Shown here one piece after another: positions 27,779 through 31,582 of a stretch of 32,110 nucleotides of DNA. How positions within the stretch are numbered: the stretch's first letter is position 1; each line of letters starts with the position of its first letter. This DNA is from Candidatus Peregrinibacteria bacterium (GTDB taxonomy: Bacteria > Patescibacteriota > Gracilibacteria > UBA1369 > UM-FILTER-53-11), in contig JACRID010000053.1 of the NCBI GenBank assembly GCA_016220145.1, positions 1-32,110 of the forward strand, written 5' to 3'. The notes beneath the pieces are model-generated. The model was not told where the DNA came from, made no database searches, and saw only the letters and a list, made by a program, of their open reading frames with translations. The translations under genes were made by a program, and so were the position numbers.

Positions 27779-28546
27779 ATGGACCGACGACTCGCGATTT
27801 TGAACGCAATTATCAAGGAATTTATTGAAACGGCCGAGCCGGTTGGTTCGCAAACGATAATGATGAGTTATCATTTTTCGGTTTCGCCGGCGACGATTCG
27901 AAACGACATGTCGTCGCTGGAACATGAGGGGCTGATTTTTCAGCCTCACACTTCGTCCGGACGCGTTCCGACGGACACAGGTTACAGGCTTTATGTGGAT
28001 GAATTGGCTGACTATGAAATCGCCGAGAAACAGGCCGAAAAGGCTTTACAGAAGGCAATAGTCAGTTATGAAATTCAGAAGGCGCGCGAGAAAATGTATG
28101 ACGGCGTGAGGATTTTGGCGCAGGCGACGGGGAACGTCAGTTTTGCGACTTTGCCGGACAACCGCCGAACTTTTTATATCGGCGTTTCGAATGTTTTGAA
28201 GGAGCCGGAATTTTCACGCGATCCCATGCGCGCGTCGCAGGTGATTGAGGTTTTGGAGGACACCGACAATTTTGTTAATACCTTGCGCCATCTTGAAATC
28301 GGCGAAAACGACGTGAAAATTTACATCGGCAAGGAGAATATTTTGCCAAAAATTCAATCTTGCGCGATGGTGGTTGCCAAGTATCATATTGCCGTAATGG
28401 ATGCGCCTTCCGTGCGCAGTAATCCAGTAGCCGAGCCCCGGCTCGGCCTGTTTGAAGGATATATTGGGCTGCTTGGGCCGACTCGAATGAAGTATCCTTT
28501 CAATCACGCGGTGGTGAAAAAAATAAAGGAAATAATTGAAAGTTGA
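27779..28546 (+). CDS. hrcA: Heat-inducible transcription repressor HrcA
   Basis: A 255-residue repressor that in other bacteria binds CIRCE palindromes ahead of chaperone operons. The winged-helix domain (1-75) is well conserved: ETAEPVGSQTI, VSPATIRNDMSSLEHEGLI, HTSSGRVPTDTGYRLYVDEL. The C-terminus YIGLLGPTRMKYPFNHAV matches the end of full-length HrcA. The protein is about 85 residues shorter than usual, so the loss is internal, mostly in the GAF-like/dimerisation part rather than by truncation. No CIRCE (TTAGCACTC-N9-GAGTGCTAA) is visible anywhere in the window. A TA module now lies between it and grpE. Confidence 0.95.
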   Translation: MDRRLAILNAIIKEFIETAEPVGSQTIMMSYHFSVSPATIRNDMSSLEHEGLIFQPHTSSGRVPTDTGYRLYVDELADYEIAEKQAEKALQKAIVSYEIQKAREKMYDGVRILAQATGNVSFATLPDNRRTFYIGVSNVLKEPEFSRDPMRASQVIEVLEDTDNFVNTLRHLEIGENDVKIYIGKENILPKIQSCAMVVAKYHIAVMDAPSVRSNPVAEPRLGLFEGYIGLLGPTRMKYPFNHAVVKKIKEIIES

Positions 28547-28547
28547 A

Positions 28548-28587
28548 TTGACATCCGTATACGGTTCTGCTATTCTGTATACAGAAT
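28548..28587 (+). promoter_or_regulatory. Promoter with twin GTATAC operators for the toxin-antitoxin module
   Basis: TTGACA (28548-28553), a 17-nt spacer and TATTCT (28571-28576) form a near-consensus promoter starting one base after the hrcA stop. Two palindromes share a GTATAC core: CCGTATACGG (28555-28564) in the spacer and ATTCTGTATACAGAAT (28572-28587) covering the -10 and running into the ATG. Their centres are exactly 20 bp apart, two helical turns, as expected for cooperative binding of ribbon-helix-helix dimers. The predicted transcription start (about 28583) leaves essentially no leader. Confidence 0.8.
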
Positions 28588-28882
28588 GACAAAGATAATA
28601 ACAACTCGCGTTGACACGAACACAGCTGCGCGCCTTGAACAAGCCATAACCAACGCGCACACGGACAAGGCCACTTTTATTCGCGTACTCATAACAAGGG
28701 GGCTTAACGAGGTTGAGACTGAAGACTCCTTGAAACGCTATAAAAATGGAGAAATCTCTCTCGGTAAGATGTCGGAGCTTTTAAATATGACAAAATGGGA
28801 TGCGCTGGACATGTTAAGGTCAAGAAAAATAGCGTTCCAATTAAGCGAAGAAGATATTCGGGAAGACCTCGAGGCCCTATAA
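28586..28882 (+). CDS. Antitoxin: ribbon-helix-helix plus UPF0175-like tail
   Basis: A 98-residue protein. Residues 1-45 (TKIITTRVDTNTAARLEQAI, ATFIRVLITRGL) fit a ribbon-helix-helix DNA-binding fold, whose beta strand starts right at the ATG, supporting this start. Residues about 48-85 (SLKRYKNGEISLGKMSELLN, WDALDMLRSRKI) resemble the UPF0175 family found with DUF3368 PIN proteins. It would bind the twin GTATAC operators that overlap its own promoter and neutralise the PIN protein encoded 4 nt downstream. The role is inferred from fold, neighbour and operator; no close homolog could be checked. Confidence 0.82.
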   Translation: MTKIITTRVDTNTAARLEQAITNAHTDKATFIRVLITRGLNEVETEDSLKRYKNGEISLGKMSELLNMTKWDALDMLRSRKIAFQLSEEDIREDLEAL

Positions 28883-28886
28883 ACCT

Positions 28887-29360
28887 ATGAAATTCGCAGC
28901 TAACAGTTCGGTGCTCATTTTTCTGGCGAAACTGGATGTTTTACACCTTCTGGAGGGGTTTGAATTATTTATTCCCGATGCGGTAAAAAACGAACTTTTG
29001 GCAAAGGAATCCGTGGAAAAAGACCGTCTGGAAAAATTCCTCAAGCAAAAAACCATAAAAATCATTAAAATCAAGAAATTACGGCAATTTAGCGCCATTC
29101 TCGGGAAAGGCGAAATGGCGGTTTTGAACATTGCGGTTGAAAAGAAAATATCCGACGTGTTGCTTGATGACCGCAGGGCCAGATCTCTTGCAAAACTTCA
29201 TGGACTTACGCCAAGAGGAACAATTTGGGTTATTCTTAATGCTTTTAAAAACGGCGTGATTGACAAAAAAGAGACAAAAAGCTTAATTTATAACTTGCCA
29301 TCAAAAGGATTTAGGATTGATGAGGTATTATTTATGGAAATTCTAAAAAAGATTGATTAA
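28887..29360 (+). CDS. PIN-domain toxin, DUF3368 family
   Basis: A 157-residue probable ribonuclease toxin. The N-terminus FAANSSVLIFLAKLDVLHLL and FIPDAVKNELL match the DUF3368 PIN pattern, with acidic residues in KNELL, GKGEMAVL and LLDDRRAR. The first catalytic aspartate of classical PIN domains is Asn here (AANSS), as is frequent in DUF3368 proteins, so activity is likely but not certain. TPRGTIWVILNAFKNGVID is a typical C-terminal part. The gene lies 4 nt after the antitoxin gene and 2 nt before grpE, so the TA mRNA probably continues into the chaperone gene. Confidence 0.88.
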   Translation: MKFAANSSVLIFLAKLDVLHLLEGFELFIPDAVKNELLAKESVEKDRLEKFLKQKTIKIIKIKKLRQFSAILGKGEMAVLNIAVEKKISDVLLDDRRARSLAKLHGLTPRGTIWVILNAFKNGVIDKKETKSLIYNLPSKGFRIDEVLFMEILKKID

Positions 29361-29362
29361 AT

Positions 29363-29896
29363 ATGACCAAAGACAACAAAAATTCGAAGTCCGATGTTGC
29401 GGCGCCTCAAGTTGACGAGGCAGCAAAGCTAAAAGAGGAGCTGGCAGCTAAAGATAAGCAAATTGCGGATTTGACCGACACCGCAAAGCGCGCTTTGGCG
29501 GATTTGCAGAATTTTCGCCGGCAAGCGGAAAAAGACCGTGCACATTTTGTGGCTTTTGCAAACGCCGGATTGGTTCTGGAACTTTTGCCGATTTTGGATA
29601 ATTTTGCACGCGCGTTCGCTCGGGTACCGGAGGAAGTTCAAAAAACAAACTGGTTTAAGGGAGCGCTTCAAATCGAGCAGCAGCTCGTTGGAATCATGAA
29701 AAAACAGGGTGTTACCGAGATGCCGTCTTCTGTCGGCAAGAAGCTGGATGTGAATTTACATGAAGCGATCACGGTTGGCCCGGGCGAAGCGGACGTTGTA
29801 ATTGAGGAATTTGAAAAAGGTTATCTGATTGGCGATAAGGTGATTCGACCGGCGAAGGTGAGGGTTGGTGATGGGAACACCTCTACTCCTGCTTAG
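29363..29896 (+). CDS. grpE: Nucleotide exchange factor GrpE
   Basis: A 177-residue co-chaperone that releases ADP from DnaK. An N-terminal charged coiled coil (about 15-60, AAKLKEELAAKDKQIADL) leads to the family core: LADLQNFRRQAEKDR, LPILDNFARAF, GALQIEQQLVGIMKKQGVTE, then DVNLHEAITV and GYLIGDKVIRPAKVRVG. It begins 2 nt after the PIN toxin gene without a Shine-Dalgarno and lacks its own visible promoter, so it must be expressed from the hrcA or TA promoter. dnaK and dnaJ, usual followers, are absent; the next genes are convergent and overlap its end by 14 nt. Confidence 0.96.
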   Translation: MTKDNKNSKSDVAAPQVDEAAKLKEELAAKDKQIADLTDTAKRALADLQNFRRQAEKDRAHFVAFANAGLVLELLPILDNFARAFARVPEEVQKTNWFKGALQIEQQLVGIMKKQGVTEMPSSVGKKLDVNLHEAITVGPGEADVVIEEFEKGYLIGDKVIRPAKVRVGDGNTSTPA

Positions 29897-30142: not shown

Positions 30143-30252
30143 GTTTTGGCAAATTCCAGAGCCGCCGCCAACCAATCCAATTTGGCCTCGGGGGAGCTTT
30201 GTTTGCATCGGCGCAGATATTCTCTGTCAAATTGAGGGGACTTGGATTTCAC
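30067..30252 (-). CDS. Small partner protein of the nucleotidyltransferase (61-residue frame)
   Basis: The ATG at 30252 overlaps the stop of the nucleotidyltransferase gene by 4 nt (ATGA), marking it as the next cistron. The peptide contains FDREYLRRCKQSSPEAKLDW followed by LAAALEFAK. This is a short helical module of the 'S/P-x-E-+-L-x-W-L-x-x-A-x-E-F' style that often accompanies MNT-type nucleotidyltransferases. It runs through an A11 tract into a basic tail (KKKIIKGSYTTRK...) and stops at 30067. Either this 61-residue form is complete, or the gene is frameshifted at the A-tract and continues in the next frame (see 29883-30142). A toxin-antitoxin role is likely but inferred. Confidence 0.55.
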   Translation of the reverse strand: MKSKSPQFDREYLRRCKQSSPEAKLDWLAAALEFAKTKKKIIKGSYTTRKPQNRRRESSRI

Positions 30253-30737
30253 AGCGACTTCAATTCTAACAAGGCTTGCAGATCAAGTAAATCTTTATCG
30301 CGTCCCGCCTTTCTCTTCATAGCCATCAAATCGCCCAAAGCAATCACCGGCAAACGTATTCCCCACGCTTCAATAACGGTCTTTTTCGCATAAAACTTTT
30401 TAAAATTCAGCGAATATCCAGCCAAAATATCAATATCCAACTGCGGTTTCTTGGCCGAAATAAAAGTGTATGCCAGCATCCCCTTTTCCGTAAGCAATTT
30501 CTTAACATTCTTTTTATCCTTCAGGTCATGCAATTGAATGGGCAAACGTTCCGTATACCCCAATCGTTTCATCACTTTTTCCATTTTCAACAGATTCGCC
30601 AAATCAAGAGTAAGCAAAATATCCATATCTCCGGTAAAACGACTGTAGCCGTACAAATTCACGGCAACGCCGCCAACAACCAAATATTCAACTCCAGACT
30701 TTTGCAGTTCAAGAAAAACCTTTTTATATGGATTCAT
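30249..30737 (-). CDS. MNT-type nucleotidyltransferase (DNA polymerase beta fold, AbiEii/DUF6036-like)
   Basis: The ORF track begins at 30941, but that extension is antisense to the MFS gene. The ATG at 30737, overlapping the MFS stop by 4 nt, is the right start and gives 162 residues. GVEYLVVGGVAVNLYGY followed by FTGDMDILL (Asp37 and Asp39) is the GG...DxD signature of minimal nucleotidyltransferases, and QLDIDIL supplies the third acid. LGDLMAMKRKAGRDKDLLDL is the typical end of the AbiEii/DUF6036 group. Members pair with a small partner, some acting as toxin-antitoxin systems that modify RNA or protein by nucleotidylation. Here the partner is the overlapping downstream gene. Confidence 0.87.
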   Translation of the reverse strand: MNPYKKVFLELQKSGVEYLVVGGVAVNLYGYSRFTGDMDILLTLDLANLLKMEKVMKRLGYTERLPIQLHDLKDKKNVKKLLTEKGMLAYTFISAKKPQLDIDILAGYSLNFKKFYAKKTVIEAWGIRLPVIALGDLMAMKRKAGRDKDLLDLQALLELKSL

Positions 30738-31582
30738 GGCGATATTATACCAGCCGCCGCCCTTCTCATAAAAATCAACGAAACGAAACCGCACAAAAAG
30801 AACACTCCGGCGGAAAGCAAAAGCGCCCATAAAATGCCGAAGAACGCCAATGGCACGCCGGCATTTTCCCAATAAGGTTGGGTAAACCAAACCATATTTA
30901 AGGTCGCGGCTCCGATGACGGCCGAATACAAAATAAGCCATTTTATTTCTTTGCGGAAATGAAGCGCGTATTTGGTAATTCCCAGCATATTTTTCTTATC
31001 CTCAGTGATTTTTGCTTCATGCGGACGCGGCTCCCGCAAGCTGATTGCCAGTGGAATGGCGAAAAGCAAAACGGCAAATTCCGCGTAAAAAGGCGTTTTT
31101 AGGCTAATCAATGCCAAAAAGCCGCCAATAATGCTAGCCAAACCTTCGGCGAAATTCCCGATGGCGCTAACGCGTCCCTGTATTCTTTTGTAATTTTCTT
31201 CGTTTTTCATTTCAAGAAGGCTGTCGTAAATCAATGCGGAATCGGCACCCGAATAAAATCCCGCGCTGATGCTAAGGATAATTTCGGCCGTAAGAAATCC
31301 CCAAAAACCGCCAGCTATAATATAAAAGAACATGCCTATTGCACCGCCGGCCGCGCCGATGATTATTGACGCTTTTCTGCCAAATCTGTCGGCAAAATAC
31401 CCGCTCGGTATCTCAATCAAAACAATTCCGATGGAAAAAACAGCCTGAATAATCATCACCTGCTTCATGGAAAGTCCGTGCGCCTGGTAAAAAATGACAA
31501 GCGTCGGGATAATCAGAAAAAACCAGTTAATGAAGCTCAAAACCTGCATTTTCCAGATGTTCGCTTTAACCGAAGGCTGCAT
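30734..31582 (-). CDS. Major facilitator superfamily transporter, truncated
   Basis: A 282-residue membrane protein with about eight helices. IEIPSGYFADRFGRKASIII (about 57-76) is the MFS cytoplasmic loop 2-3 signature, and YSGADSALIYDSLLEMKNEE resembles a subgroup of bacterial MFS proteins of unknown substrate. Normal members have 12 helices and about 390-420 residues. Here the protein breaks off in the second half (LSAGVFFLCGFVSLIFMRRA) with an atypical end AAAGIISP, exactly at the ATGA junction with the nucleotidyltransferase. I found no continuation in other frames, so about four helices are missing, perhaps replaced by the NTase pair. Transport activity is doubtful. Confidence 0.82.
   Translation of the reverse strand: MQPSVKANIWKMQVLSFINWFFLIIPTLVIFYQAHGLSMKQVMIIQAVFSIGIVLIEIPSGYFADRFGRKASIIIGAAGGAIGMFFYIIAGGFWGFLTAEIILSISAGFYSGADSALIYDSLLEMKNEENYKRIQGRVSAIGNFAEGLASIIGGFLALISLKTPFYAEFAVLLFAIPLAISLREPRPHEAKITEDKKNMLGITKYALHFRKEIKWLILYSAVIGAATLNMVWFTQPYWENAGVPLAFFGILWALLLSAGVFFLCGFVSLIFMRRAAAGIISP

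Follow-up and report, generated by a model that had tools for sequence, protein, structure and literature searches.

The window, the whole analysed stretch of 32,110 nucleotides from a Candidatus Peregrinibacteria bacterium, carries a predicted two-gene toxin-antitoxin (TA) module between the genes hrcA and grpE. A promoter in which the hexamer GTATAC occurs twice precedes the module. The features of this region are, in window coordinates:

27779-28546, + strand: hrcA (heat-shock repressor), the upstream neighbour, identified by PF01628 and TIGR00331
28548-28553, + strand: -35 element TTGACA, from the sequence and a consensus scan, beginning one base past the hrcA stop codon
28555-28564, no strand: candidate operator 1, CCGTATACGG, centre 28559.5, core GTATAC at 28557-28562, within the -35/-10 spacer
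28571-28576, + strand: -10 element TATTCT, from the consensus scan, as an extended -10 (TGcTATTCT) with its TG at 28568-28569
28572-28587, no strand: candidate operator 2, ATTCTGTATACAGAAT, centre 28579.5, core GTATAC at 28577-28582
28586-28882, + strand: predicted antitoxin, 98 aa, with RHH-like (ribbon-helix-helix) residues 1-45 and UPF0175/HTH-like residues 48-96; COG2886 family
28887-29360, + strand: predicted toxin, 157 aa, a DUF3368 PIN-fold protein according to PF11848, PADLOC and its structural model
29363-29896, + strand: grpE, the downstream neighbour, identified by PF01025 (E 2e-37)

With a spacer of 17 nt, the promoter TTGACA-N17-TATTCT is the top sigma-70-type match of the region, agreeing at 10/12 positions in the consensus scan. 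The initial annotation had described twin GTATAC palindromes centred exactly 20 bp apart, the first in the spacer and the second over the -10 and the start, and the coordinates confirm this layout. Transcription normally starts 7 to 9 nt past the -10, which would place the start at 28583-28585. The antitoxin ATG at 28586 is the earliest start codon of its open frame, so that the antitoxin mRNA would have no leader or almost none. The core of operator 2 fills the gap between the -10 and this putative transcription start, and the operator as a whole extends over the -10 and over the first two bases (A and T) of the antitoxin ATG. Since the second hexamer would lie upstream of the start and thus outside the transcript, an RNA-element reading of the twin GTATAC was rejected.

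Gene products and genomic setting

The only family match of the antitoxin over its cut-off is PF03683 (UPF0175), with an E-value of 4e-13 and 49.3 bits against a curated cut-off of 27.9. The match covers residues 48-96, and 7/7 module members share it. PF01402 (RHH_1) was found below threshold in 5/7 bacterial relatives and, again below threshold, in 9/21 relatives including archaeal ones (best E 0.006); the window antitoxin is not among the matches listed. An AlphaFold2 model (pLDDT 80.6, moderate confidence) shows residues 1-10 extended and helices at residues 11-24, 28-53, 59-65, 70-79 and 88-97. The N-terminus, a short strand followed by two helices, has the layout of an RHH protein in this model, which is of a monomer and cannot show the dimer sheet. 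A structure search with the model gave no PDB match at E <0.001, with DNA-bound CopG (1ea4) ranked low, and an annexin match was judged to be chance helical similarity. The earlier view of an RHH antitoxin acting as autoregulator stands in part: the twin operators are strongly supported by their presence at 7/7 loci and by the hexamer at haloarchaeal relatives, but the plain RHH assignment does not, as PF03683 is the sole significant match. No relatives emerged when viral and genome contigs were scanned with single proteins. An alignment scan returned just the six known bacterial loci from the genome contigs and none from the viral contigs.

The antitoxin gene comes first and is separated by 4 bp from the toxin gene, whose product matches PF11848 (DUF3368; E 8e-9, 35.7 bits, cut-off 27.3) and PADLOC PDC-S70 (E 4e-26). 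Top structure matches of the toxin model (pLDDT 86) are PIN domains including VapC4, with a probability of 1.00 and E ~1e-3. In the alignment of seven members E36 and D94/D95 are invariant. At the first acidic position, where PIN domains usually have a catalytic Asp, 6/7 members have Asn and the remaining one (L016) has Asp. Both genes co-occur strictly, in exactly the same 7 genomes.

Judged by its named relatives, the genome is of the Peregrinibacteria/Peribacteria type within the CPR. In five further genera of the family, hrcA directly adjoins grpE and no module intervenes, so the arrangement is most simply explained by insertion of the TA module between them in the window lineage. The grpE ATG follows two bases past the toxin stop, so the putatively autorepressed promoter at 28548-28587 may drive grpE too. 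Related modules have other neighbours, namely eno, rpsG/fusA and dxr/infC. In L017 (1-5958) the module again lies next to a core gene, with rpsL-rpsG upstream and fusA directly downstream. Carriers number 7/353 class genomes, and no further UPF0175 proteins were found in the order. Such sparse, shifting and strictly paired occurrence is the pattern expected of a mobile two-gene module. Just one direct repeat was found near the module, a 15-nt sequence inside the antitoxin gene and at the grpE start, which does not flank the module. Although hrcA is present, the window contains no CIRCE-like site at up to 3 mismatches, and a CIRCE reading of the twin GTATAC was rejected. Further downstream, the minus strand encodes at 30249-30941 a nucleotidyltransferase weakly similar to AbiEii/DUF2204, which may belong to another TA or defence pair.

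Conservation of the hexamer pair among bacterial modules

By itself, the pair in the window is only mildly improbable. Simulated 32-kb windows contain about one perfect 16-bp palindrome each, and 13% of them have two same-core palindromes, each with arms of 5 or more, lying within 40 bp. In the real window the twin-GTATAC locus is the sole such pair. It goes far beyond chance because GTATAC-N14-GTATAC recurs at related loci: in a scan of 341 class genomes, each of the 7 carriers had the motif exactly once, at the antitoxin promoter, where ~4e-5 occurrences would be expected by chance in seven upstream stretches of 150 bp. At non-TA places the motif occurs ~15 times in the 341 genomes, which is background level, as a reversed control pattern gave a similar or higher count. 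Most carrier genomes have few GTATAC pairs with any other spacing between 2 and 30.

At all seven modules found in the class, TTGA(c) is followed by two GTATAC separated by 14 nt, the final six of which form the -10. The TTGA of the -35 is invariant at 7/7 loci, a TAnnnT -10 stands in the same register in the relatives, and the aligned hexamers are spaced 20 bp from centre to centre at 7/7 loci. The antitoxins of the six relatives are 38-54% identical to that of the window. Each of the two GTATAC hexamers is identical to the window in 36/36 cells across these relatives, compared with 16/48 (33%) for the bases between the hexamers outside the -10, 13/60 (22%) for the upstream flank and 109/222 (49%) for the early antitoxin codons. 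Loss of the palindromes in homologous modules, which the initial annotation had named as grounds for refutation, is contradicted by this alignment, since the cores are kept at 7/7 loci. Their outer arms (ATTC..GAAT and CC..GG) are not conserved and are specific to the window locus.

The overlap of the second operator with the ATG, another element of the original description, is present in the window but is not conserved among the seven loci. At L002 and L003, which are leaderless by the same reading, the second GTATAC abuts the ATG without overlapping it, while at L004-L007 the ATG lies ~20 bp downstream of the second GTATAC. Leaderless by the -10 reading are thus 3/7 loci (the window, L002 and L003). 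The conserved relation is that of operator to -10, not that of operator to ATG. Three of the seven bacterial loci belong to one genus and most of the haloarchaeal loci described below to one clade, so that the counts overstate the number of independent observations.

Haloarchaeal relatives and phage promoters

On a Salinirubellus plasmid, the gene for a full-length antitoxin relative (36% identity) precedes a DUF3368 gene. Starting from this relative we collected 16 haloarchaeal plasmid loci, which represent about three independent lineages. An exact GTATAC lies no more than 45 bp from the antitoxin start at 13/16 of these loci and a 5/6 match at the remainder, compared with 0/544 exact occurrences in control windows from the same loci. 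Unlike the bacterial sites with their 20-bp spacing, the archaeal ones are arranged in several ways. At 14 loci a triplet of GTATAC-like hexamers with 9-bp steps occupies positions -27, -18 and -9, and Salinirubellus has a single site. A Haladaptatus plasmid (L161 576-600) has two exact GTATAC with a spacing of 19 bp, and the second directly adjoins the antitoxin ATG, an arrangement that resembles L002 and L003 and the bacterial design. The basal transcription apparatus of haloarchaea differs from that of bacteria.

Bacterial and archaeal antitoxins have in common the strand motif [IVTS]x[ST]xR, in which R8 is invariant and is preceded two residues earlier by S or T. Three distant UPF0175-like matches from other orders of the phylum, in which the N-terminus is different or missing, have no GTATAC near the gene. 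We think it rather likely that RHH-type UPF0175 antitoxins of CPR bacteria and haloarchaea share one DNA-recognition code, GTATAC. The word would be fixed and its arrangement re-fitted to each promoter type, so that the module would bring its own regulation across domains.

Viral contigs scanned for TTGAC-N4-GTATAC-N14-GTATAC gave four matches. In L051 (3707-3920, minus strand) TTGACA, twin GTATAC 20 bp apart and TATACT make up a well-formed promoter and precede a 46-residue RHH-like protein without a UPF0175 part, whose strand IVSFR shows the alternating I, S and R (IxSxR). L049 (753-1088) has a twin-GTATAC promoter with the 20-bp spacing before a non-TA phage gene with a ribosome-binding site. 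On the minus strand of L092 (1805-1830), twin GTATAC 20 bp apart lie before a non-TA gene whose ATG abuts the second site. As four matches are about the number expected by chance, these phage parallels are a lead only. Searching viral contigs for GTATAC-N8-TAnnnT-GTATAC produced 78 matches, nearly all lacking a -35 or gene start, which were set aside as noise.

Proposed regulation, alternatives and significance

We interpret the hexamers as sites of the antitoxin because their cores are kept in 7/7 loci and the same hexamer is found at haloarchaeal relatives. As candidate operators for autorepression by the antitoxin, the twin GTATAC are strongly supported by inference. The locus is very probably the promoter-operator through which a two-gene type II TA module of the COG2886 (UPF0175)-DUF3368 PIN kind regulates itself, with antitoxin dimers reading GTATAC. 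One dimer would bind each hexamer via its N-terminal RHH-like part, and two dimers would sit about two helical turns (about 1.9) apart, on nearly the same face of the DNA. Occupying the -35/-10 spacer and the stretch from the -10 to the start, they would exclude RNA polymerase and so repress the promoter. The PIN toxin, a putative RNase, would presumably bind to the C-terminal UPF0175 part, and toxin dimers may bridge both antitoxin dimers, by analogy with FitAB of Neisseria gonorrhoeae. In this VapBC-type system, composed of an RHH antitoxin and a PIN toxin, a hetero-octamer touches the operator via two RHH units (PMC3384007). FitAB is thus a model for two sites ~two turns apart, although its antitoxin family differs from the UPF0175 family of the window.

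The UPF0175 part is itself HTH-like and could add to or replace the RHH part in DNA binding. COG2886 has been described as an HTH family (Makarova et al., PMC2701414), and the antitoxin model contains a helix-turn-helix-like pair at residues 59-65 and 70-79. Nevertheless, we consider it unlikely that the antitoxin binds its operators mainly through this C-terminal domain rather than through the RHH-like N-terminus: the distant UPF0175-like matches with an altered or absent N-terminus have no upstream GTATAC, the RHH-like protein of phage contig L051 sits behind a twin-GTATAC promoter without having a UPF0175 part, and the [ST]xR strand residues are kept between bacteria and archaea.

Reading of the operators and control of the operon by another repressor, be it HrcA or a phage or host regulator, seems highly improbable to us. 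The module does lie directly behind hrcA, and phage contigs L049 and L092 share the promoter design before other genes, but the operator travels with the module while the neighbours named above vary. GTATAC bears no resemblance to CIRCE, and the window yielded no CIRCE-like site. There remains the explanation that the twin hexamers arose by chance or reflect promoter consensus, as a spacer or discriminator preference, and are not antitoxin sites. The frequency of same-core pairs in simulated windows speaks for it, whereas the 7/7 recurrence speaks against it. Moreover, a motif found once per carrier genome is no general promoter feature, and the same hexamer stands at archaeal promoters of another type; these two observations refute the explanation in practice, and we give it almost no credence.

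Autoregulation by the antitoxin fits a kind of system that is already known. COG2886-PIN pairs were predicted as TA systems in 2009 (Makarova et al., PMC2701414). The window module resembles these and the PADLOC candidate PDC-S70 in having a UPF0175 antitoxin beside a DUF3368 PIN toxin, in gene order and in tight spacing. Compared with the COG2886-PIN systems as described, its antitoxin adds an RHH-like N-terminus and an assignable GTATAC operator. The nearest operator analogue is yefM-yoeB/axe-txe, in which a long and a short palindrome with a shared 6-bp core are positioned at fixed spacing over the TA promoter (PMC7730913, PMC4803016). Their 12-bp spacing is constant and conserved across homologues (PMC7730913), and in axe-txe the long palindrome lies within the -35/-10 spacer (PMC7730913, PMC4803016). 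These systems combine the core TGTACA and the 12-bp spacing with YefM/Axe antitoxins, whereas the window combines GTATAC and 20 bp with an RHH-like antitoxin and a PIN toxin. In the open-licence literature we found no earlier operator, binding or repression report for the UPF0175/DUF3368/COG2886 family. What is new is the assignment of an operator to this family, together with its 20-bp geometry and a GTATAC word that is common with archaeal relatives.

Overall, the twin hexamers provide a concrete operator candidate for a TA family that was predicted in 2009 and has hardly been studied, also in uncultured CPR bacteria, whose regulation is readable from sequence alone. In the window genome, a putatively autorepressed promoter comes to lie directly ahead of the chaperone gene grpE. 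The hexamer common with archaea suggests a protein-DNA recognition code that survives transfer between domains despite their different transcription machinery.
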